Translations under genes and position numbers: made by a program
The notes under the pieces: generated by a model
The model's input: only the letters and a program-made list of their open reading frames with translations
Database searches by the model: none
Told to the model about the DNA's origin: nothing
From: Endomicrobium sp.
GTDB taxonomy: Bacteria > Elusimicrobiota > Endomicrobiia > Endomicrobiales > Endomicrobiaceae
NCBI GenBank assembly: GCA_031266185.1
Contig: JAISBM010000001.1
Coordinates: 1 to 64,000, forward strand
Length of the DNA stretch: 64,000 nucleotides
Direction of reading: 5' to 3'
Shown: in pieces, positions 34,025-53,101 of the stretch
Layout of the letters: every line of letters starts with the position of its first letter
How positions within the stretch are numbered: position 1 is the first letter of the stretch

Positions 34025-37000
34025 TTGCTTATGCTTACAAATTTTAGTTTTACCAAAAGGGAAGTTAAGTTTGTTTTTTTAGTAGCAGCAGCTTTGTTTT
34101 TTTGCGTAGGGATTTCTTATTCAAAAAGAATTACAATAAATTCGAATGTTGTCGCTCCAGTTTACGGAAATGGTGATTCTCATAACAACGGACAAGGCCA
34201 ACCAGATGGCCATAATACAGATTCTAACTTTATAACTTTGCCGCACAACTTTAGTATTAACGGCAATAGTATTTTCGGCGCAAGCAATATTAATAATAGG
34301 ATGCAAAATGTTGTGGGCAATAAGGTAACTGTAAATACTAGCGGGACAATTGGAAAGGATGCTGTCGGCGGCGAAAGCCACGGGGCTGGTTCTGTAACTG
34401 ATAATGCTGTTGAAATTATACAAGGAAGGGTAAATGGAGACGTTTATGGCGGTCGTTGTAGTAACAACGCTAGGGCTTCTTCAGGCAATTTAGTAAAAGT
34501 TGTCAATGGCACCATAGTAGGAGATGTGGTTGGCTGTCATTCTAATACTGGCTTGTTAGATAATAATATGGTGGAGATTGATGATGGCAATATTGAAGGA
34601 AATGTTAACGGTGGATTTTCTGATACTGGAGACATAACTAGCAATACAGTCAAGATTAATAATGGAACAATTAGGCAGGATGTCCATGGGGGATTTTCTA
34701 GTCAGTCGAGAACGGTTAATAATACAGTGGAGATTTTTAACGGCAATATGGCCAGTGAAGTTTATGGCGGTTTTAGCGGGCTTGATGCGACTGGAAATAA
34801 AGTAAAATTGCATGGTGGGACTATTACAAACGATGTTTGTGGAGGACGTTCTAATAACGGCGCGGCGCTTAATAATGTGGTGGAAATCAATAATGGCGCT
34901 GTTAATCGGGATATTCATGGAGGCAGGGCTGATAATGCTGGTATTGTAAGTAATAGTGTAGTCAAAATAAATAATGGAACTATTGGAAGAGATGCTTATG
35001 GCGGATATGCTGTTCAGGGCTACGCTTTTAACAACATGATAGAAATAGGAGGTGGAGTTGTCGCGCGGGACATTTATGCCGGCTATAGTAATGTTAATGC
35101 GTCAGAAAATGAAATAAAAATGTATGCGGGAGACGTTAAATTTAACGCGCATGGAGGATATTCGCTTTATGGATCAGCTTCCGATAATAAGGTAGACGTT
35201 TATGGCGGGGCTATAGGAAGAGATGCTTATGCCGGTTATTCTGCTCTTAATGCGTCTAGTAATAAAATAAAAGTATACAACGGGACTGTTTTAAACAATG
35301 TTCATGGAGGATATTCTACTAATGGATCTGCGACAAATAATATAGTAGAGATTTGTTATAGCAATATAGGAAAAGATGTTTATGCCGGTCATGCTGCAGT
35401 TGACGCTTCCGAAAATAAAGTAACAATATATAGCGGAAGAGTCGTCGGCGTTCACGGCGGTCATAGTGTTAATGGGTCGGCAAACGGCAACACTGTAGAG
35501 ATTTTTGGCGGCGATATTGCAGGGCATGTTTACGGCGGTTCTTCTGTAAATGGAGCGGCAACCAGTAATACTGTGTCAATTGATGGGGCTGCTATATTTT
35601 CTGACGCTTCAATTATATACGGAGGATATTCTAATAGCGCCACAGCTGATGTTTTTACAAATAACTCTCTGAATTTAAAAACGACAGGCATAACTGTAGC
35701 GGACTTAAGAAATTTTGAATATTATAATTTTTATGGTCCAAGAACTAATGAAGCTATGATTAGTGTCGGAAACAGTGTAAACCTCAATAACGTTAAGATT
35801 TCAGTGTCTTTGGATAGAAACAGTGAGATTAACGTCAACGACAAATTTGTTCTTATTAAAAGCACTTCTGGAATTACAAACATTGATGCGGGATATGTTG
35901 ATTCATATAGCAGCGTAATAGTTAAGTACGATCTTTATGTTTTAATGGAAGACCCCAGCGAACTTGCGGTAGTAGTAAGCAGTAAATCTATAAATCCACA
36001 AGCAAGAGTCTTATCGCAAGGAGGAGCAGCTTCTGGTTTAGTATTTGCTGGGCAAGGATTGGACTTTATCGCAAATAAAGTTTTGCAAGCAGTACGCCAA
36101 AGATGCGATATTAATAGTAAATTTGTACCTTTCGCGTTAGCGCACGGCGGTAAAACAAAATACAATTCTGATAGCTCTGTCGATATGGAAGGAGTGTCAG
36201 TAGTAGGTGGTTTATCAAAACATTTTATGGATCAAAGACTCATGTTGGGAGCGTTTGGGGAATATGGAGACGGTAAATATAATACTTTAGATACCATAGT
36301 GGAAAATAATTTAGGCGATGTTACGTCCAGAGGAATAATGAGCTATGTTGGAGGCGGTATTTTAGGATGCCTAAAAATAGACAATATCTATATGGACGTT
36401 TCAGGACATGCGGGTAACTCTTCCGGAGACTTTAACAGCTGCGATATAGGAATAGGTGCGCAGGAAGAAGTAAAATATAACTATGAGGTAATGTATTATG
36501 GCGCTCATTTGGGATGCGGATATATTTTGAAATTAGGCAATAAGTTTAGCGTAGATGTAAACGGGAAGTTTTTGTTAACGCACCAAGAAGGTAAAAATAT
36601 AACGCTGTCTACGCAAGACAATATTGCATTTTCTCAAGCAAATTTGGGCAAAATTCGCTTAGGCGTAAGATCAGGATACAAACTGTTAAATGTGTTAACG
36701 CAATATTCAGATTTAGAGCATGAGCATATGAAAGAAGTAGAAACAAAAGCAAAAGAGGCAGGGGTTTGTGTTGAAGATTTATATACTTCAAAATATACTT
36801 TAACTCCATATCTGGGGTTAGGGTATGAATACGAATTTTTTGGCAAAATTGAAGCAAAATCAACAGATCTTGACATCCCTGCTGTAGATTTAAGAGGAGG
36901 TAATGCCATAGGCGAAATAGGAGTAGCAAGCGCTGTTGGGCCGTTTAATATAGATTGTAGCGTGTTTGGGTATAAGGGAGTAAGAGATGGGGTAGACGCA

Positions 37001-37030
37001 ATGTTAAAAATAAAATATTACATAGGGTGA
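34025..37030 (+). CDS. Repeat-rich autotransporter (type V secreted surface protein)
   Basis: The 1001-residue protein has an uncleaved-looking N-terminus and signal peptide (KFVFLVAAALFFCVGISYS), a passenger of about 16 glycine/asparagine-rich repeats of 25-28 residues (residues ~99-540), a linker, and a C-terminal autotransporter beta-barrel from about residue 700 (VSVVGGLSKHF, VDVNGKFLLTHQEG, ending MLKIKYYIG). The passenger should form a beta-helix on the cell surface, plausibly for adhesion to the host. Start: TTG 34025 has the best spacing to AAAGGAG; ATG 34031 is also possible. Base composition and codon use are richer in G and C than in flanking genes, suggesting a different history. 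A perfect terminator follows at 37210. Confidence 0.88.
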   Translation: MLMLTNFSFTKREVKFVFLVAAALFFCVGISYSKRITINSNVVAPVYGNGDSHNNGQGQPDGHNTDSNFITLPHNFSINGNSIFGASNINNRMQNVVGNKVTVNTSGTIGKDAVGGESHGAGSVTDNAVEIIQGRVNGDVYGGRCSNNARASSGNLVKVVNGTIVGDVVGCHSNTGLLDNNMVEIDDGNIEGNVNGGFSDTGDITSNTVKINNGTIRQDVHGGFSSQSRTVNNTVEIFNGNMASEVYGGFSGLDATGNKVKLHGGTITNDVCGGRSNNGAALNNVVEINNGAVNRDIHGGRADNAGIVSNSVVKINNGTIGRDAYGGYAVQGYAFNNMIEIGGGVVARDIYAGYSNVNASENEIKMYAGDVKFNAHGGYSLYGSASDNKVDVYGGAIGRDAYAGYSALNASSNKIKVYNGTVLNNVHGGYSTNGSATNNIVEICYSNIGKDVYAGHAAVDASENKVTIYSGRVVGVHGGHSVNGSANGNTVEIFGGDIAGHVYGGSSVNGAATSNTVSIDGAAIFSDASIIYGGYSNSATADVFTNNSLNLKTTGITVADLRNFEYYNFYGPRTNEAMISVGNSVNLNNVKISVSLDRNSEINVNDKFVLIKSTSGITNIDAGYVDSYSSVIVKYDLYVLMEDPSELAVVVSSKSINPQARVLSQGGAASGLVFAGQGLDFIANKVLQAVRQRCDINSKFVPFALAHGGKTKYNSDSSVDMEGVSVVGGLSKHFMDQRLMLGAFGEYGDGKYNTLDTIVENNLGDVTSRGIMSYVGGGILGCLKIDNIYMDVSGHAGNSSGDFNSCDIGIGAQEEVKYNYEVMYYGAHLGCGYILKLGNKFSVDVNGKFLLTHQEGKNITLSTQDNIAFSQANLGKIRLGVRSGYKLLNVLTQYSDLEHEHMKEVETKAKEAGVCVEDLYTSKYTLTPYLGLGYEYEFFGKIEAKSTDLDIPAVDLRGGNAIGEIGVASAVGPFNIDCSVFGYKGVRDGVDAMLKIKYYIG
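34319..35650 (+). repeat. Tandem repeats coding the autotransporter passenger
   Basis: About 16 degenerate units of 75-84 bases. Protein consensus per unit is roughly NxVxIxxGxI followed by xxDVYGGYSxxGxA. In the second half, units alternate between a YAGYS-NAS type and an HGGYS-GSA type, giving a higher-order period of about 51 residues. Confidence 0.8.
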
Positions 37031-40673: not shown

Positions 40674-42873
<2,200 letters not shown>

Positions 42874-42936
42874 AGTTATTGACAAACTCTAAACTTTTGT
42901 AGGTTGCTTACCCTAAATTATTATTGTGAGCTTGCA

Positions 42937-43620
42937 ATGCATGATGAAAATAAATATTCTAACTTAAAACTTGAAGATGTAAAAAAGAACCCAATAGTAA
43001 ATTCATTTATTAAAGCTGCTAATGACAATTTATGTGTTATGGGTTATACAGAGCATGGTTTAAGACATGTTAGCTTGATTTCTTCTATATCAGAAAATAT
43101 TTTACGTAGTTTGGATTATCCCAAGAGAATGCAAGAACTTGCAGCAATCACGGGATATGTTCATGATATTGGCAATGTTATAAATAGACATGATCATGGT
43201 CAGTCTGCTGCGTTAATAGTTATAAAAATACTTAAAGATATGGGAGCAACTCCTGATGAGATAGCTTTAATAATCTCTGCTATAGGTAACCATGAAGAAG
43301 AAGTTGGAGAACCTGTAAATCCAATAGCTGCCGCTTTAATTTTAGCAGACAAGTCTGATGCACATAAAAGCAGAGTTAGAAACAAAAGTATTTCAAGGTA
43401 TGATATACACAATAGAGTAAATTACGCTGTTGAAAGATCTTTCTTAAATGTTGATAAGGGGAAAAAAGTAATATCACTTCATCTTACTATTGATACGCAA
43501 ATTTCACAAGTTATGGAATATTTTGAAATTTTTATGCCTAGGATGCTTATGAGCAGAAAAGCTGCTAACTTTTTAAATTGTACATTTGAGTTAATAATAA
43601 ATAAGAGGAAATTACTCTGA
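42937..43620 (+). CDS. HD-domain phosphohydrolase, paralogue 2
   Basis: The 227-residue protein is clearly related to the gene at 40674: MGYTEHGLRHVSLISSI, GYVHDIGNVINRHDHGQSAA, SAIGNHEEEVGEPVNPIAAA, LADKSDAHKSRVR and the same C-terminal pattern (HLTIDTQISQVMEYFEIFMP). All HD metal ligands are present. I start at ATG 42937, where the similarity begins; the frame could start at TTG 42904. Its stop TGA shares its last base with secD ATG, so it is coupled to secD. Placement of two paralogues inside a translocase operon is unusual and suggests a linked function. Confidence 0.75.
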   Translation: MHDENKYSNLKLEDVKKNPIVNSFIKAANDNLCVMGYTEHGLRHVSLISSISENILRSLDYPKRMQELAAITGYVHDIGNVINRHDHGQSAALIVIKILKDMGATPDEIALIISAIGNHEEEVGEPVNPIAAALILADKSDAHKSRVRNKSISRYDIHNRVNYAVERSFLNVDKGKKVISLHLTIDTQISQVMEYFEIFMPRMLMSRKAANFLNCTFELIINKRKLL

Positions 43621-45067: not shown

Positions 45068-46009
45068 GTGCAATTCTTTAAATCCACAAATATAGATTTT
45101 ATAGGTAACCGACATAAATTTTTTGTGGTTTCTATTCTTTTTTTTGTTATAACAATAGTTGCCTTTATTTATAGACAAGAACCTAATTATGGCATAGATT
45201 TTACCGGCGGTATTATGATGCAAGTTTCTTTTGAAAATAAATTAGATGATTTGCAAGATGTTCGCAAAGCTATAGAAGAGGCTCAAGTGACATCTTTTGA
45301 ACTTCAAACTTCAGAAAATTTAGTTGTAATAAGAGCAAAAAAAAGCTTACAATCACAAGAAGAGTTTGACAAAAGTATAAGTCAGTCTATCCAAAATAGA
45401 TTTCCTGATAACCCCATGAAAATTGAGAGAATAGAATATGTGGGACCAAGTGTTGGCCAATACCTTTCTAAGCAAGCTTTGTATGCATTCTTTTTTGCGT
45501 TTTTGGGGATGATTGTTTATGTTGCTTTTAGGTTTAAGTCTAGCTTGTGGGGAATTGTTTCGGTTTTAGGCATTATCCATGATGTTATTATTTCTTTTGG
45601 ATTTGTGATTTTAGTTAATAAAGAAGTTAATATAACAGTGGTAGCTGCTTTGCTTACAGTTGCAGGTTATTCAATAAATGATACAATAGTTTTATTTGAT
45701 AGAATTAAAGAAAATTTAAGGTTTGGCTCAAAAGAAATTTTTGCAAATATAATAAATAAAAGTATAAATGAAGTTTTAGTAAGAACAATTGTAACTTCTT
45801 TAACTGTATTTATTGTTGCGAGTTCTTTGTTTTTCTTTGGTGGGGAAGTTATACATACGTTTGCTTATATAATGGTTATAGGTACGGTTCTTGGTGTGTA
45901 CTCTACAATATTTTTGTGTACTCCTTTAGTTTATGAATGGGAAGTAAGAAGAAGTAATAGATTAAAAATGGCTATCAAGCAAGGTGCAGTAAATTCTAAG
46001 AAGAAATAA
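45068..46009 (+). CDS. secF: Protein translocase subunit SecF
   Basis: 313 residues: TM1, YGIDFTGGIMMQVSF, EYVGPSVGQYLSKQAL, then VAALLTVAGYSINDTIVLFD with the conserved TM4 Asp, and GGEVIHTFAYIMVIGTVLGVY. Start at GTG 45068 after CGGAGGATAAA. It ends in the same TAATG as the next gene begins. Confidence 0.96.
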   Translation: MQFFKSTNIDFIGNRHKFFVVSILFFVITIVAFIYRQEPNYGIDFTGGIMMQVSFENKLDDLQDVRKAIEEAQVTSFELQTSENLVVIRAKKSLQSQEEFDKSISQSIQNRFPDNPMKIERIEYVGPSVGQYLSKQALYAFFFAFLGMIVYVAFRFKSSLWGIVSVLGIIHDVIISFGFVILVNKEVNITVVAALLTVAGYSINDTIVLFDRIKENLRFGSKEIFANIINKSINEVLVRTIVTSLTVFIVASSLFFFGGEVIHTFAYIMVIGTVLGVYSTIFLCTPLVYEWEVRRSNRLKMAIKQGAVNSKKK

Positions 46010-46590
46010 TGAGAAAAATAAAAAATTTTAAAATTAATTTACGTATAAAAGAAATTTCAAGTGTAATAAAAAAGCTCAATAATATTTCTATAGATTCAAT
46101 AGAACTTGAAGAAATCGTAAGACGTAGTTGTAGTACATATTCTAAGTTTTTATATCCGTCAGCTATTTATGACACTTTTTCGAAAGAAGTTTTTCCTTCG
46201 TTTGAAGAAAATACCATTGCTCCAAAGTTTGTAGCTTGTAGTGTGTTTTTTGTGACTATTGGTAAGACTCTTGAAGAGCAGTATAAATTAAATCCAGGTG
46301 CTTTTGGAGAATATACTTCTACAATAGTGTCTGCTATAGCAGTTGATGCTTTGGAACAGTCAAAAAACTTTATTCAAAGACTTATTATAAGCGAAGCTAA
46401 AAACGAAAGTTGTGAAGTTTCAAGAGCAGAAGAGATTCAGGATGGTTTATGTAGTGAATTTGTAAAGTTGGTTCCCATTAGTAAAATTGACATAAGTGTA
46501 GTGTCAGGAGAACTTAACCCTAAATATTCTACTTGTGGATTGTTCTATTGGATTCCTTCTAAGAAAAAACAAAAAAAAGCAGTTAAGTAG
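46009..46590 (+). CDS. Protein resembling the B12-dependent methionine synthase activation domain
   Basis: The 193-residue protein starts in the stop of secF (TAATG). A mid segment FVTIGKTLEEQYKLNPGAF followed by YTSTIVSAIAVDALEQSKNF, and a late SGELNPKYSTCGLFYWIPSK, recall stand-alone activation-domain-like proteins related to MetH (SAM-binding fold with a helix ending in AxDxAxE). No Cys motif for corrinoid binding is visible. I would not assign an activity: fold resemblance is moderate and the window has no MetH or corrinoid protein. Confidence 0.4.
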   Translation: MRKIKNFKINLRIKEISSVIKKLNNISIDSIELEEIVRRSCSTYSKFLYPSAIYDTFSKEVFPSFEENTIAPKFVACSVFFVTIGKTLEEQYKLNPGAFGEYTSTIVSAIAVDALEQSKNFIQRLIISEAKNESCEVSRAEEIQDGLCSEFVKLVPISKIDISVVSGELNPKYSTCGLFYWIPSKKKQKKAVK

Positions 46591-46654
46591 TTTGGTTATA
46601 ACAACTTCTATAAGTGCTCCTATATTACTTTTACTTAAAGTTTGATAACATAAA

Positions 46655-47911
46655 ATGTTAAAAATATATCTCATTATATATAATGTATTATTTATAGTAT
46701 TTTTACCTATACTTGCTGTAGTTATTATGTTTATTAAAAAGTATAGGAAAGAGTTTTTTTATAAGATATTTGAACGTTTTGCATTTTATGGAAATTTAAT
46801 AAAACAAAATAATAAGCCTACAATTTGGATACACTGTGCATCTCTTGGTGAAGTGCGAGCTGTTGAGCCTATTTTAGATAGTTTAAGTTTGAGAAATAAC
46901 ATAATTTTAACAACAATTACTAAAACAGGTAGAGAATATGCTCAGAAAATTAAAAAAGCAAATTTTGTTTTTCTATTCCCCATTGATATCTATCCTATAA
47001 TGCTTAGAGCATTTAATATAATAAACCCAAATATGATTATAATTGTAGAAACTGAACTTTGGCCTACGTTACTTTATACAGCTTTTAAGAGGAATGTTGT
47101 AGTTGTTACTGTAAATGGTAGAATGTCAAACAAAGCTTTTAAGAGTTATAAAAAGCTGAAGTTTTTTTGGGGAAGTTTTATAAGTTTAATTTCTACTATT
47201 ATTGCAAGAAGTGATGACGATGCATATAGATTTAGAGTGTTAAGAAGGAATATAGATGAAGTTTTTATTTCAGGGAATATAAAATATGATAGAGATTTTT
47301 CTGTAGATTTTAAAAGATCAAATTTATCTTTAAAAGAAGAAGATTTTGTTTTTACTGCTGGAAGCGTAAGAGAAGGTGAAGAAGAGATTATTATAAACGT
47401 ATATATGAAAATTATTCTTGAATTTAATAATATAAAATTTTTTCTTGCCCCAAGACATCCTGCCAAGGTAAACGATATAATAAAGGTTCTTGAAAATAGA
47501 AATATAAAATATAGTTTATTTTCTTCTGGCAATTTACAAAACAATTTTATTTTAGTTGATGTTTTTGGAAAGCTGCAAGAAATATATGCTATTTCAGACG
47601 TTTGCTATGTTGGTGGCTCTATGGTTGACATGGGTGGTCAAAACCCTGTAGAGCCTGCAGGTTTTGCAAAACCAGTTCTTTTTGGGAAGTATATGGATAA
47701 TTTTGCTACTGAATCTGAAGTGCTTGTAAAAAATGGTGGGGCTTTAATAGTGCAAGGTTCTAGTGATTTGGCTAGCAAAATAAAATGTTTTATATTAGAT
47801 CGTCAAATATTAAAAAGTATGGGACAAAATGCTTTAAAAGCTGTTCAGTCTCAAAAAGGTGCAGTAATTTTTACAGTACAAAAAATAAAAAGTAAATTGT
47901 ATGTCAAATAA
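46655..47911 (+). CDS. kdtA: 3-deoxy-D-manno-octulosonic acid (Kdo) transferase
   Basis: The 418-residue GT30 enzyme has an N-terminal anchor helix (IYNVLFIVFLPILAVVIMFI), WIHCASLGEVRAVEPIL, TITKTGREYAQKI, IVETELWPTLL, VTVNGRMSNKAFKSY and the C-terminal CMP-Kdo part DVCYVGGSMVDMGGQNPVEP. It adds Kdo to lipid A precursor at the inner membrane, so the organism makes at least an LPS inner core. It overlaps the next gene by 11 bases; four LPS-type genes in a row form the operon. Confidence 0.95.
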   Translation: MLKIYLIIYNVLFIVFLPILAVVIMFIKKYRKEFFYKIFERFAFYGNLIKQNNKPTIWIHCASLGEVRAVEPILDSLSLRNNIILTTITKTGREYAQKIKKANFVFLFPIDIYPIMLRAFNIINPNMIIIVETELWPTLLYTAFKRNVVVVTVNGRMSNKAFKSYKKLKFFWGSFISLISTIIARSDDDAYRFRVLRRNIDEVFISGNIKYDRDFSVDFKRSNLSLKEEDFVFTAGSVREGEEEIIINVYMKIILEFNNIKFFLAPRHPAKVNDIIKVLENRNIKYSLFSSGNLQNNFILVDVFGKLQEIYAISDVCYVGGSMVDMGGQNPVEPAGFAKPVLFGKYMDNFATESEVLVKNGGALIVQGSSDLASKIKCFILDRQILKSMGQNALKAVQSQKGAVIFTVQKIKSKLYVK

Positions 47912-49556
47912 GGTTTTTATAAAGATTATTACGTTTGTATCTAAGGCTGTAGATAAAACTTTAAGAAAAATATCATTAAATGATGAGTTTCATTATCCAA
48001 AGCCTTCAATTTATGCTTTTTGGCATGGAAATGAGTTCCCTATGATGCTGTCTAATCAAAATAGAAATATAGTTATAATGGTAAGTCTGTCTAAAGATGG
48101 TGAAATGTTAGCTGGACTTTTAAGAAACTTTGGGTTTTTAACAGTGAGAGGTTCTTCTAGTAAGGGTGGAGGGCGTGCATTAATAGCAATTATAAAGTAT
48201 GCTCGTAGCGGTTATTCTCTTGCTTTTGCTTGTGACGGACCAAGAGGACCTTACCATAAACTTAAGTCAGGAATTGTCTATACAGCCCAAAAGACAAAAA
48301 TGCCACTAATCCCTATAAATTGTTCTCCAAAATATAAAATAATGTTTAAAAATTGGGATAGAACAATAATACCTTTACCTTTTTCTAAAACTGTACAAGT
48401 ATATGGAGACCCAATTTATGTTAGCGACACTGATAGCATAGAGGACAAAGTTAAAGAAGTTGAAAGTAAGTTAAATAAATTATTTAAATTTACAAATGAA
48501 TGTTATTGGGAAAATGATATATTAAAATACTTGCAATATCATCCTGCTCCAAAAATTTTGATTGTTCAGCCTAGCAGAATAGGAGATATAATATTTTCTT
48601 TACCTGTACTTAATGCAATAAAAGAAAAATATCCTAATGCGAGATTGAGTTGGATTGTAGACGAAAGATGTTCTCAGATACTAGAAGACAACCCTATTTT
48701 AGAAAATGTTTTTGTTTGGGACAGAAAACGAGTTTCTTTTAAATATTATAGACAGTTGATAAAAACTTTAAGGAAAGAAAAATTTGATTTAAGTATAGAT
48801 TTACATGGTCTTGCAAAATCAGCTTTACTTGTAAAGCTTGCAAATGCTCATTTTAAAATAGCATCTTCATCTACAAATGGTATGAGAGAATTTTCTTGGT
48901 TGTTCTCAAAAGAAATTAAATCTTTGTCAAATAAACATTGTGTTGAACGCCATTTTGAAGTGGCAAAATATTTAGGATGTAAAGAAGAAATAAAATATCC
49001 TATATATATACCAGAAGAAAACTTTCAAAGTGTTAAAAAAAAGTTATTGAAAGAAAATATAAATTTAGAAAATATTGTAGGAATTCATCCTGGCGGTGGG
49101 TGGGTTTCTAGAAGGTGGAACAGCTATAAATTTGCAGTGCTTGCGGGTAAATTAAAAAGAGAATTAAATTTAGATGTTGTCTTAGTTGGTGGCAAGGAAG
49201 GTGGTACTAGTGAAAAAGGATTAAGTGAGGAAATAGTAAGAGATTCTGGAGTTAATGTAATAGATATGTCAGGTAAGTTTACACTAAAAGAATTATGTGC
49301 TTTTTTGTTAATATGTAAGATTTTTGTTGGTAATGAAGCTGGACCAATGCACATAGCTACAGCTTTAAATGTTAATGCAGTTGCTGTTTTAGGACCCACA
49401 GATGCCAAACGCACAGGGCCATATAAAGGTAATACTACTATTGTCCAGCATCAGGTGGCTTGTCAGCCTTGTAGAAATAGAAATTGTAAAGCAGTAATTT
49501 GTATGAAAGATATAACAGTTAAAGAAGTATTTGAAGCAATAAAAAAGAAATTGTAA
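47901..49556 (+). CDS. Fusion of a DUF374 acyltransferase-like domain with a GT9 heptosyltransferase
   Basis: 551 residues. The N-terminal ~200 form a DUF374 domain of the lysophospholipid-acyltransferase superfamily: YAFWHGNEFPMML, SLSKDGEMLAGLLRNFGF, VRGSSSKGGGRAL, ACDGPRGPYHKLKSGIVYTA. From about residue 215 a GT9 glycosyltransferase follows: ILIVQPSRIGDIIFSLPVLN, FDLSIDLHGLAKSALL, VGIHPGGGWVSRRW, FVGNEAGPMHIATALNV. Both halves look complete and in frame. DUF374 proteins are usually separate genes next to kdtA. The fusion suggests acylation (or another transfer) and heptosyl addition on one lipid A-core acceptor. Confidence 0.88.
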   Translation: MSNKVFIKIITFVSKAVDKTLRKISLNDEFHYPKPSIYAFWHGNEFPMMLSNQNRNIVIMVSLSKDGEMLAGLLRNFGFLTVRGSSSKGGGRALIAIIKYARSGYSLAFACDGPRGPYHKLKSGIVYTAQKTKMPLIPINCSPKYKIMFKNWDRTIIPLPFSKTVQVYGDPIYVSDTDSIEDKVKEVESKLNKLFKFTNECYWENDILKYLQYHPAPKILIVQPSRIGDIIFSLPVLNAIKEKYPNARLSWIVDERCSQILEDNPILENVFVWDRKRVSFKYYRQLIKTLRKEKFDLSIDLHGLAKSALLVKLANAHFKIASSSTNGMREFSWLFSKEIKSLSNKHCVERHFEVAKYLGCKEEIKYPIYIPEENFQSVKKKLLKENINLENIVGIHPGGGWVSRRWNSYKFAVLAGKLKRELNLDVVLVGGKEGGTSEKGLSEEIVRDSGVNVIDMSGKFTLKELCAFLLICKIFVGNEAGPMHIATALNVNAVAVLGPTDAKRTGPYKGNTTIVQHQVACQPCRNRNCKAVICMKDITVKEVFEAIKKKL

Positions 49557-49568
49557 TTTTAAAAAAGT

Positions 49569-50498
49569 ATGAAAATTTTAATTATTAAACCTAGTTCGTT
49601 TGGAGATATTGTACAAGCTTTACCTTGTGCTAATGCTTTAAAACGATCTTACTGTGATTGTCAGATAACTTGGGTTGTTTTTAATAACTGGGAACTTTTA
49701 CCTAGAATTTGTACAGATATAGATGAAGTTATTATTTGGGATAGAAAAAAATGGGTTAAAGGCTTTTTTGATGTTTTAAAAAAAGTTAGACAAAAAGAAT
49801 ATGATGTAGTACTAGATTTGCAAGGTCTTTTAAGAAGTGCATTTCTTACGAAATTTTCTAAATCAAAGATAAAGATTGGGGCTCCTGGTATGAAAGAATT
49901 TAGTAATCTTTTAGTTAGAGAAATATCTCCACAAAAAGCAAAAATCAATGCTACTCTTAGGAATTTAGAAACAGTTCATTATTTAACAGGTAGATCATTT
50001 GAGCCTAAAGTAAATATAAGAATTAATGCTAATGTAGATAATATTGTTAAAACTGACAAAATCTTGAAAAATTTTATTGTTTTTTTACCTTTTGCTAGGG
50101 GGAAAGGTAAAGATTGGGGAATTTTAAATTATCAAAAACTTATTTTTTTATTAAAAGAAAAATACTCTAATTTAAATATTATTGTTTTAGGTTCAAAGAA
50201 TGATTACGGAAAACTAGAATCGGATGATGTTATAGATTTATGTGGAAAGACAAATATATATGAACTAGCAAGTATTTTGGTTAAAGCGCATGTTGCAGTT
50301 GGAGCAGATACAGGTCCTATGCATTTGGCTTCTGTTTTAAATGTGCCTTCAGTTTTTATTTTTGGGATGTCTGATATAAAAGAAACATCTCCATATATAG
50401 GTAAATTTTCTTTGCTTATAAATAAACAAAGTCAAAAAGATATACAATCTATAAGCCCTGAAATAGTTTTTAGTGAGATACTTAAATGGATAAAATAA
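49569..50498 (+). CDS. GT9 heptosyltransferase-like glycosyltransferase
   Basis: 309 residues of the ADP-heptose:LPS heptosyltransferase family: ILIIKPSSFGDIVQALPCAN, YDVVLDLQGLLRSAFLTKF, the nucleotide-binding half with VIDLCGKTNIYELASIL and GADTGPMHLASVLNVPSVFI. Likely adds one core sugar to Kdo or heptose on the cytoplasmic face. It overlaps the next GT9 by 13 bases. Confidence 0.87.
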   Translation: MKILIIKPSSFGDIVQALPCANALKRSYCDCQITWVVFNNWELLPRICTDIDEVIIWDRKKWVKGFFDVLKKVRQKEYDVVLDLQGLLRSAFLTKFSKSKIKIGAPGMKEFSNLLVREISPQKAKINATLRNLETVHYLTGRSFEPKVNIRINANVDNIVKTDKILKNFIVFLPFARGKGKDWGILNYQKLIFLLKEKYSNLNIIVLGSKNDYGKLESDDVIDLCGKTNIYELASILVKAHVAVGADTGPMHLASVLNVPSVFIFGMSDIKETSPYIGKFSLLINKQSQKDIQSISPEIVFSEILKWIK

Positions 50499-51409
50499 TT
50501 TTTTTTCATATGAACCAGTTAGGAGATTTACTTTTTTCTTTGCCAGTTTTAAAAGCTGCTAAAGAAGAATTGGGTTCACAAAATTATTCTGTAATAAGTA
50601 AAGACTTAGCCCCTATTTTAATAGCGTCAGGTTTGGTTGATGGCTTTTTTGATAAAAGCAACTATAATATGGGACTTATAAGAAAAGAAAAGTTTACTAA
50701 AGCTGTTTTGTTTTCAGAATCTCCTAAATCTTTATTGTATGCTTATTTTTCTAAAATTAAAGAAAGAATTGGCTTTAGGACTGCATCTTTGGGTTTTCTT
50801 CTAACAAAAAAAATTGATAGAGTAGGAGTTCCATCACTGCTAAATAATAGACAATTAGGTGTAGCTTTTGGGTTAAAAAGTGTACCTAAAGATTATACGC
50901 ATATATTACACGTTTCTCAAGATAATGTTAACAATGTGAAAAAATGGTTTAAAATTAACAATTTAGATGCTCCAAAAACAATTGCTATTTCTGTTGGGGC
51001 AAGTAAAAGAAGACAAGATAAATGTTTGGAAGATGATAATTGGGTTAAAATTATAGATATTTTATCTGAAAACGGTTTGAGCTGTGTTCTTTCCGGAGCA
51101 AAATGGGAGCATAAGAGTTTAGAAAGTATAGCACAAAAATGTAAAATAAAACCTAAATTATTTACTGCACAAGGAGGCATTTTAGATAGTGCTGCTTTTT
51201 TAGGACAGTGTAGTTTGGTTTTAGGTATAGACTCTGGTGCTATGCATTTAGCTGCATCTGTTGGAACTAAATGCGTTGCAGTACTTGGTTATACTGATCC
51301 TCTTCAAGTTGGTCCAATGCCTATTGATAAACACATTATAATAAAAAAAGAAAATATTAAGTTTATAAGGCCAGAAGACATTATTGACTCGATTTTATAT
51401 AAAAAGTAA
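50486..51409 (+). CDS. GT9 heptosyltransferase-like glycosyltransferase, second
   Basis: 307 residues with the GT9 pattern: IIFFHMNQLGDLLFSLPVL, ISVGASKRRQDKCLEDDNWV and LGIDSGAMHLAASVGTKCVAV. More diverged than the preceding GT9 in its N-terminal half. Third GT9 domain in tandem; such triplets usually extend the core stepwise. A gap of 12 bases to the pfp start suggests co-transcription with the PPi-PFK gene. Confidence 0.83.
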   Translation: MDKIIFFHMNQLGDLLFSLPVLKAAKEELGSQNYSVISKDLAPILIASGLVDGFFDKSNYNMGLIRKEKFTKAVLFSESPKSLLYAYFSKIKERIGFRTASLGFLLTKKIDRVGVPSLLNNRQLGVAFGLKSVPKDYTHILHVSQDNVNNVKKWFKINNLDAPKTIAISVGASKRRQDKCLEDDNWVKIIDILSENGLSCVLSGAKWEHKSLESIAQKCKIKPKLFTAQGGILDSAAFLGQCSLVLGIDSGAMHLAASVGTKCVAVLGYTDPLQVGPMPIDKHIIIKKENIKFIRPEDIIDSILYKK

Positions 51410-51421
51410 AAGGTGGAAACA

Positions 51422-53101
51422 ATGATAGAAAATAAATGCAATGTTTCAGAATTGCAGGTTGAAAGATCAAAGTTTAAGCCAGTACTTCCTAAAGTTTTAA
51501 AAAATGGGTTAAGTGGGACAGTTGTAGTAAAAGGAAAACCAACAAAATCAGTAGCAGATCAAGAAAAAGTTAAAGAGCTGTTTAAAAATACTTACGGATT
51601 ACCTATTGTTACGTTTAAAAAAGGTAAAAACAAAACGCTTAAAAAAAAATGTATTAAAGTAGCAGTTGTGTTTTCTGGAGGCCAAGCTCCAGGAGGGCAT
51701 AATGTGATTGCTGGTCTTTTTGATGGTCTAAAAAAAATAAATAAGAAAAATACTTTGATAGGTTATTTAGGTGGTCCTTCTGGAATTTTAAATAATAGAT
51801 ATCAAGAAATTACAAAAGATGTTCTTTGTGAGTATAGAAATACAGGTGGTTTTGATTATATACAATCAGGACGTGCTAAAATAGAAACTCCTGACCAGTT
51901 TTGCTCAACAAAGGATAATCTTGCAATATGTGACGTTGATGCACTTGTAGTTGTTGGTGGAGACGATTCAAATACAAATGCAGCGATGATAGCAGAATAT
52001 TTTAGAGAACAAGGGATAGATAAACGTGTTATAGGCATCCCTAAAACAATTGATGGTGACTTAAAAAATAAGTATATAGAAACTTCTTTTGGTTTTGATA
52101 CAGCTACAAAAATTTATTCAGAACTTGTAGGAAACATTTGTAGAGATGCAAATTCAGCTCGTAAATATTGGCACTTTGTTCGTCTTATGGGAAGAAGGGC
52201 TTCTCACATTACCTTAGAAGTTGGCTTTAAAACTCAACCTAATATAATTTTGATTGGTGAAGAAATTTTAGCTAAAAATATGACCCTCTCAAAAGTTGTT
52301 GATAGTATTGTAGAGACCATAGTTAAGCGTTCTGAAAAGGATAAAGATTTTGGCGTTATTTTGGTCCCAGAGGGTGTCATAGAATTTATTCCAGAAATAA
52401 AAGAGTTAATTTCAGCGTTAAATGATATTTTAGCAGAGAACAAAAGTGAGTTTTCTAAGTTGAGTTCTATAGATGATAAAAAAGAATTTGTTTGTAAAAA
52501 GCTTTCTACAAAATTGGCAACATTAATATCAGAACTTCCAATAGGCATAGCTTCTCAACTTATGTCTGAACGAGATCCTCATGGAAATGTTGTAGTATCA
52601 TTAATCGAAACAGAGAAATTGTTAATAGAAATGATTCGCAAAAAACTTTCAGAGTTAAAAAAGAAAGACAAATATAACGGTAAGTTTGCAAGTATAACTC
52701 ATTTTTTTGGTTATGAAGGGCGTTGTGGTATACCGTCTAATTTTGATGCAAACTATACATATGCTTTAGGTTTTAACGCTGCAATGCTTTTGCTTAATGG
52801 TTTCAGTGGATATATGTCTTATATAAAAAATCTTATCAAACCTACAAAAGATTGGGAATGTGGGGGCCTTCCTTTAACAATGATGATGAACATTGAAAAG
52901 AGAAGTGGAAAAAAAAAGCCTGTTATACAAAAAGTTTTAGTAAATTTAAAAGGTAAACCGTTTAAGAAATTTGTTAAAAATAGATATAAATGGGCTATTA
53001 ACGAAAATTATCTTTTCCCTGGACCTATACAATATTTTGGGCCTAAAAATATTACTGATATGACCACTAAAACTTTGCAGTATGAACAGACACAAAAATA
53101 A
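51422..53101 (+). CDS. pfp: Pyrophosphate-dependent 6-phosphofructokinase (long type)
   Basis: 559 residues, the long plant/spirochaete-like PFP class. Key motifs: VVFSGGQAPGGHNVIAGL, GGDDSNTNAAMIAEYF (Asp in place of the Gly that accepts ATP in ATP-PFK), IPKTIDGDLKN with catalytic TIDGD, RLMGRRASHITLEVG, and GYEGRCGIPSNFDANYTYAL. It phosphorylates fructose 6-phosphate with PPi, reversibly. I use ATG 51422 behind AAAAGGTGG; the frame could also open at GTG 51413. No ATP-PFK is seen in the window. With the membrane PPase it points to a PPi-saving glycolysis. Confidence 0.95.
   Translation: MIENKCNVSELQVERSKFKPVLPKVLKNGLSGTVVVKGKPTKSVADQEKVKELFKNTYGLPIVTFKKGKNKTLKKKCIKVAVVFSGGQAPGGHNVIAGLFDGLKKINKKNTLIGYLGGPSGILNNRYQEITKDVLCEYRNTGGFDYIQSGRAKIETPDQFCSTKDNLAICDVDALVVVGGDDSNTNAAMIAEYFREQGIDKRVIGIPKTIDGDLKNKYIETSFGFDTATKIYSELVGNICRDANSARKYWHFVRLMGRRASHITLEVGFKTQPNIILIGEEILAKNMTLSKVVDSIVETIVKRSEKDKDFGVILVPEGVIEFIPEIKELISALNDILAENKSEFSKLSSIDDKKEFVCKKLSTKLATLISELPIGIASQLMSERDPHGNVVVSLIETEKLLIEMIRKKLSELKKKDKYNGKFASITHFFGYEGRCGIPSNFDANYTYALGFNAAMLLLNGFSGYMSYIKNLIKPTKDWECGGLPLTMMMNIEKRSGKKKPVIQKVLVNLKGKPFKKFVKNRYKWAINENYLFPGPIQYFGPKNITDMTTKTLQYEQTQK

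Follow-up and report, generated by a model that had tools for sequence, protein, structure and literature searches.

Does a single gene of Endomicrobium sp. encode two enzymes of lipopolysaccharide (LPS) assembly and, if so, do both act on the same molecule? This question is raised by an open reading frame in the stretch of DNA analysed here (64,000 nucleotides, hereafter the window), which derives from a genome of 0.83 Mb that is 52% complete. An earlier note on this DNA had proposed that complete DUF374 and GT9 domains are fused in frame at this site, within an LPS-core operon that begins with KdtA. The locus contains the following features:

46655-47911, + strand: kdtA/waaA, Kdo transferase, 418 aa (PF04413, 8.2e-48)
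47901-49556, + strand: lpxJ-GT9 fusion gene, 551 aa, ATG to TAA
47901-48485, + strand: LpxJ (DUF374) acyltransferase domain, residues 1-195 (PF04028, 1.3e-25; PatA/PlsC fold)
48486-48551, + strand: linker, residues 196-217, helical and ungapped among 51 homologues
48552-49553, + strand: GT9 heptosyltransferase domain, residues 218-551 (PF01075, 3.5e-37; TIGR02195, 136 bits)
49569-50498, + strand: GT9b, a second, stand-alone and WaaC-like GT9 (PF01075, 7.1e-33)
50486-51409, + strand: GT9c, a third, divergent GT9 (PF01075, 8.3e-22)

One uninterrupted frame beside kdtA

The 551-aa frame contains no internal stop codons and, with a G+C content of 32.0% for the window, the probability of an equally long open frame arising by chance is ~1e-19. 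Pfam places DUF374 at the N end (residues 52-118, profile positions 3-69 of 69) and GT9 at the C end (residues 284-530, profile positions 2-242 of 247), and the NCBIfam model for heptosyltransferase II, TIGR02195, matches residues 218-549. The proposed in-frame fusion of two complete domains is thus borne out. The start of the gene overlaps the 3′ end of kdtA by 11 bases. The kdtA product also matches NF004388 (1.2e-86), but under the curated cut-off of that model, and the best NCBIfam model for GT9b, TIGR02193, likewise stays below its cut-off. No terminator-like site was found within 46500-51500. In most of the order the arrangement is secD-secF-unnamed gene-kdtA-[lpxJ-GT9]-GT9-GT9. The description as an LPS-core operon beginning with KdtA therefore stands as far as the inner-core cluster and the adjacent kdtA are concerned, but the conserved cluster also has secD-secF and an unnamed gene upstream.

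A 193-aa gene at 46009-46590 gave no Pfam or NCBIfam match. Almost all of the Elusimicrobiota loci that we read have it as a conserved gene between secF and kdtA/lpxJ, and by eye the C-terminal part of its product resembles a methionine synthase activation domain.

The frame, the fusion and the linker are kept in 51 fused homologues spread over six families of the host's order, so that an undetected frameshift and separate translation can be discounted as explanations of the fusion. Both had been named in the earlier note as findings that would speak against it. A stop or frameshift between the domains is absent from the window and was seen only in the relative G164, and no start codon is conserved in the linker among the 51 homologues. 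In the aligned linker region (residues 190-221) ATG is absent from 41 of the 51 homologues and no near-cognate start codon is conserved, so that we rejected an internal start for GT9. The two frames of G164 would fit an assembly or sequencing artefact that joins two genes into one frame, as the break lies inside a run of ten A's. However, the fused frame is present in 51 separately assembled genomes, including the single-contig 1.59-Mb genome G023, and the junction in the window holds no long homopolymer. We therefore count an artefact as already refuted by the homologues and its probability as negligible. The apparent frameshift that splits lpxJ-GT9 in G164 (L052:6100-6300) may itself be a sequencing error, a real mutation or slippage.

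Properties of the two halves and the linker

The N-terminal half scored 89.2 bits with PF04028, above the curated cut-off of 26.8. The earlier note called DUF374 an orphan domain with no firm reaction, which is not supported: DUF374 proteins are homologues of LpxJ, which was characterised as a lipid A late acyltransferase in Helicobacter, Campylobacter, Wolinella and Rickettsia; the characterised enzymes add the secondary acyl chain at the 3′ position, some of them prior to Kdo transfer (PMC6148475). Mutagenesis of R. typhi LpxJ identified W60, H61, D86, D132, W172 and D173 as essential (PMC6148475). As the reaction is already worked out, the fusion agrees with a known function and does not provide the functional clue to DUF374 that the earlier note had seen in it. 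All six essential residues are matched in the fusion protein by W41, H42, D66, D112, W152 and D153 (by motif and spacing rather than by direct alignment with RT0047), and these positions are at least 98% conserved across the 51 fused homologues. With R. typhi RT0047 the N-terminal half also shares the Pfam family, Asp/Trp positions that lie 46 and 40 residues apart and a PatA-like fold: residues 1-205 matched PatA (5f2z; Z 14.3 over 174 residues, rmsd 4.0) and PlsC (5kym; Z 13.0). To our knowledge, the characterised LpxJs are all single-domain proteins, whereas the fusion protein carries a GT9 domain joined by a helical linker. The idea that DUF374 provides the only late acyltransferase of the host was rejected in general, as LpxL-type acyltransferase genes occur in 78 of 86 genomes of the class, the window's own included. 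In three reduced symbionts (G001, G106 and G092), which keep LpxJ-GT9, an LpxL-type enzyme was not detectable, so that no late acyltransferase other than LpxJ would be recognisable there.

The GT9 half scored 128.5 bits with PF01075 (cut-off 22). With 136 bits it passed the equivalog cut-off of TIGR02195 (134.6 bits) by a margin of only 1.4 bits, which we counted against a bifunctional protein, and with 132 bits it remained below the cut-off of TIGR02193. Its GT-B fold matched 3tov (Z 36.2) and the E. coli structures of WaaF (1psw; Z 32.2) and WaaC (2h1h; Z 32.0). The catalytic base of WaaC is D13 (PMC5713226), which is matched by D229 in a GD motif; this residue is invariant in the 51 homologues, and the cysteines 521, 524, 529 and 534 are also invariant. 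The heptose activation gene hldE, for ADP-heptose supply, is present in the same genome. Judged by these similarities, the GT9 half is WaaF/WaaC-like. It differs from WaaF and WaaC in the LpxJ domain at its N end and in an identity of only ~23% to either (structural alignment). WaaC D261 aligns with E479, and WaaC K192 falls outside the pairwise alignment; Arg 404/405 lie in the corresponding motif, and its counterpart is probably an Arg. From these replacements, the sugar donor or acceptor may differ from that of WaaC.

Near kdtA we also found GT9 genes of ~500 aa with an extra N-terminal stretch like the first half of the GT9 domain (L062:8359-9858 and L063:3294-4817); the same type lies beside kdtA in L146, L149, L159 and L161.

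The linker comprises the end of a helix (180-199) plus a second helix (207-213); it has no gaps in the 51 fused proteins, which retain the motif (K/E)YLxxHPxPKILI(V/I)QPSR. An AlphaFold2 model built with 31 aligned homologues shows two domains and a helical linker, and its mean pLDDT of 89.9 and pTM of 0.89 suggest that the domain arrangement is fixed. Purifying selection acts on both halves, with pairwise dN/dS values of 0.06-0.31 for LpxJ and 0.07-0.23 for GT9.

When window positions 46851-49600 were compared to L122 (G031), identity was mostly ~0.91-0.99 from kdtA through the LpxJ half and often 0.82-0.87 in the GT9 half, with dS rising from 0.08 to 0.44. This shift suggests recombination within the gene.

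Distribution and history of the fusion

Of the 248 genomes from the phylum, 226 contain DUF374. Among the 86 genomes of the class, 70 have both DUF374 and KdtA and 8 have neither, with 2 and 6 discordant, a co-occurrence that is weakened by the fact that the genes form one locus and the genomes are incomplete. The open frame measures 219-284 aa in other families of the class and mostly 553-590 aa within the order (families f1-f6), where deviating lengths occur in g3/g10 (290-330 aa), in a pair of g1 genomes (184 and 187 aa) and in a single frame of 639 aa. Throughout the order except in g3/g10, lpxJ is located with kdtA and GT9 genes. In the nearest outgroup, f7, kdtA-lpxJ are unfused and the GT9s lie at other sites. 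In f8/f9, lpxJ adjoins the unnamed gene and secF, and a kdtA-GT9 cluster is separate.

Beyond the window's group we read the 80 best-matching LpxJ loci, which come from many phyla, and among these LpxJ-GT9 occurred in L152 alone, which is itself endomicrobial; a wide bacterial distribution of the fusion was thus not seen within this set, and rarer cases may exist elsewhere. We found no report of an LpxJ-GT9 fusion in the literature searched. Among the same 80 loci, kdtA lies directly 3′ of lpxJ in many other loci and phyla, and Fermentibacterota (L167, L171 and L179) carry LpxJ-KdtA fusions. Such fusions also occur in the Elusimicrobiota families f18 and f20, with Pfam confirmation for f18. 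Like the gene in the window, they have LpxJ at the N end and an inner-core glycosyltransferase at the C end and belong to the same gene cluster. However, the partner is the Kdo transferase and the origin is separate: LpxJ-KdtA arose independently of LpxJ-GT9.

In the LpxJ tree, f7 is the unfused sister, and the fused state has to be gained once and lost twice, three changes in all, with the frameshifted G164 accounting for one loss. The fused GT9s fall into one clade together with those of g3/g10, G114, G164 and G130. Both trees support a single origin of the fusion in the order's ancestor. A direct descent of the fused GT9 from the kdtA-adjacent GT9 of the outgroups was unsupported, as the latter group with the order's second GT9 gene.

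In g3/g10, lpxJ now lies elsewhere in the genome, and its product retains at its C end the linker plus ~80 residues from the N-terminus of GT9 (loci include L041:6132-7043, L042:6314-7246 and L043:1413-2330), and the kdtA-linked GT9 begins with a linker remnant. The LpxJ and GT9 trees agree in placing these genes next to g4/g7, their fused sister genera. These remnants and placements are best read as a fission via duplication and reciprocal domain loss, which makes the fusion ancestral in the order. The GT9 stub holds no catalytic motif, and its dN/dS values of 0.15 and 0.39 indicate purifying selection. The symbiont G114 has a decayed LpxJ half next to an intact and constrained GT9 (dN/dS ~0.10), and in G017 the entire locus is decaying. 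As the domains live apart in g3/g10, and GT9 persists beside a ruined LpxJ in G114, the covalent link is not essential everywhere.

Proposed function and alternative readings

We observed a single chain with both folds and conserved catalytic residues, an old fusion and purifying selection on both halves. We consider it likely that the lpxJ-GT9 protein is a bifunctional LPS enzyme of nascent Kdo-lipid A at the inner membrane, fused once in the order's ancestor. The fold and domain matches, the catalytic residues, hldE, the fixed helical linker, the dN/dS values and the trees were counted in its favour, as were the LpxJ-KdtA fusions elsewhere, the neighbourhood of lpxJ and kdtA across many phyla and the co-occurrence of DUF374 with KdtA. 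Against it we counted the residue changes relative to WaaC, the domains that live apart and the reported lack of LptD in Endomicrobiaceae (PMC11257099). As the earlier note had proposed, both domains very likely act on the same Kdo-lipid A intermediate.

The two activities and the sequence in which they act, as well as the precise acceptor and a possible coupling, are our inference. The LpxJ domain would acylate lipid A with a secondary (late) chain (at the 3′ position in characterised LpxJs), and the GT9 domain would use ADP-heptose to add heptose to the inner core of this same molecule in the membrane. As substrate, both would take the product of KdtA, encoded just upstream, and their site of action would be the inner leaflet of the inner membrane. 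The fusion would hold both active sites on one rigid chain, and its advantage would probably lie in co-localisation, equal dosage and a possible hand-over of the acceptor.

The same two activities would be present if the fusion were a near-neutral join of operon neighbours that fixes stoichiometry only, with independent and uncoupled domains. This reading, to which we give somewhat less than an even chance, would account for the renewed separation of the domains in g3/g10 with both parts kept, for the intact GT9 of G114 without LpxJ and for those other lineages in which LpxJ has instead joined its neighbour KdtA. It fits less well with a fusion kept through six families, a helical linker of constant length and a confidently predicted domain packing, nor does it account for the GT9 residues that the g3/g10 LpxJ keeps under selection after fission. 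The stub could instead be the remnant of an interface. In that case the N-terminal half of GT9 would now be part of the LpxJ enzyme, and the protein would be a rigid unit in which acylation and heptosylation of one lipid A are coupled; we regard this stronger version as rather doubtful.

It is also conceivable that the LpxJ half acts on another lipid (e.g. a glycerophospholipid) and the GT9 half adds a non-heptose sugar, given that the LPLAT fold is common to PlsC and PatA, that the equivalent of WaaC D261 and probably that of K192 have changed and that most genomes also have LpxL-type acyltransferases. However, all LpxJ-specific residues are retained, hldE is present, the gene keeps its place beside kdtA and GT9 genes across the order outside g3/g10, and the three symbionts with no detectable LpxL-type enzyme still keep LpxJ-GT9. 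We thus consider such other substrates quite improbable.

Lipid A acylation and core assembly are usually drawn as separate steps. The gene studied here is a true, old and lineage-specific fusion of two known LPS enzymes, and across a whole order a glycosyltransferase of the inner core and a late acyltransferase of lipid A evolve as one protein. Together with the separate LpxJ-KdtA fusions, it supports the view that lipid A acylation is spatially coupled to the assembly of the core, and its value lies in this evidence rather than in a first hint at the role of DUF374. Natural controls are on hand in the fused, split-with-stub and acyltransferase-decayed versions.

Elsewhere in the window, a 1001-aa ORF (34025-37030) has many degenerate repeats and a C-terminal region that by eye is autotransporter-barrel-like. 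Two similar paralogues (40674-41339 and 42904-43620), HD-domain-like by eye, flank tgt-yajC.
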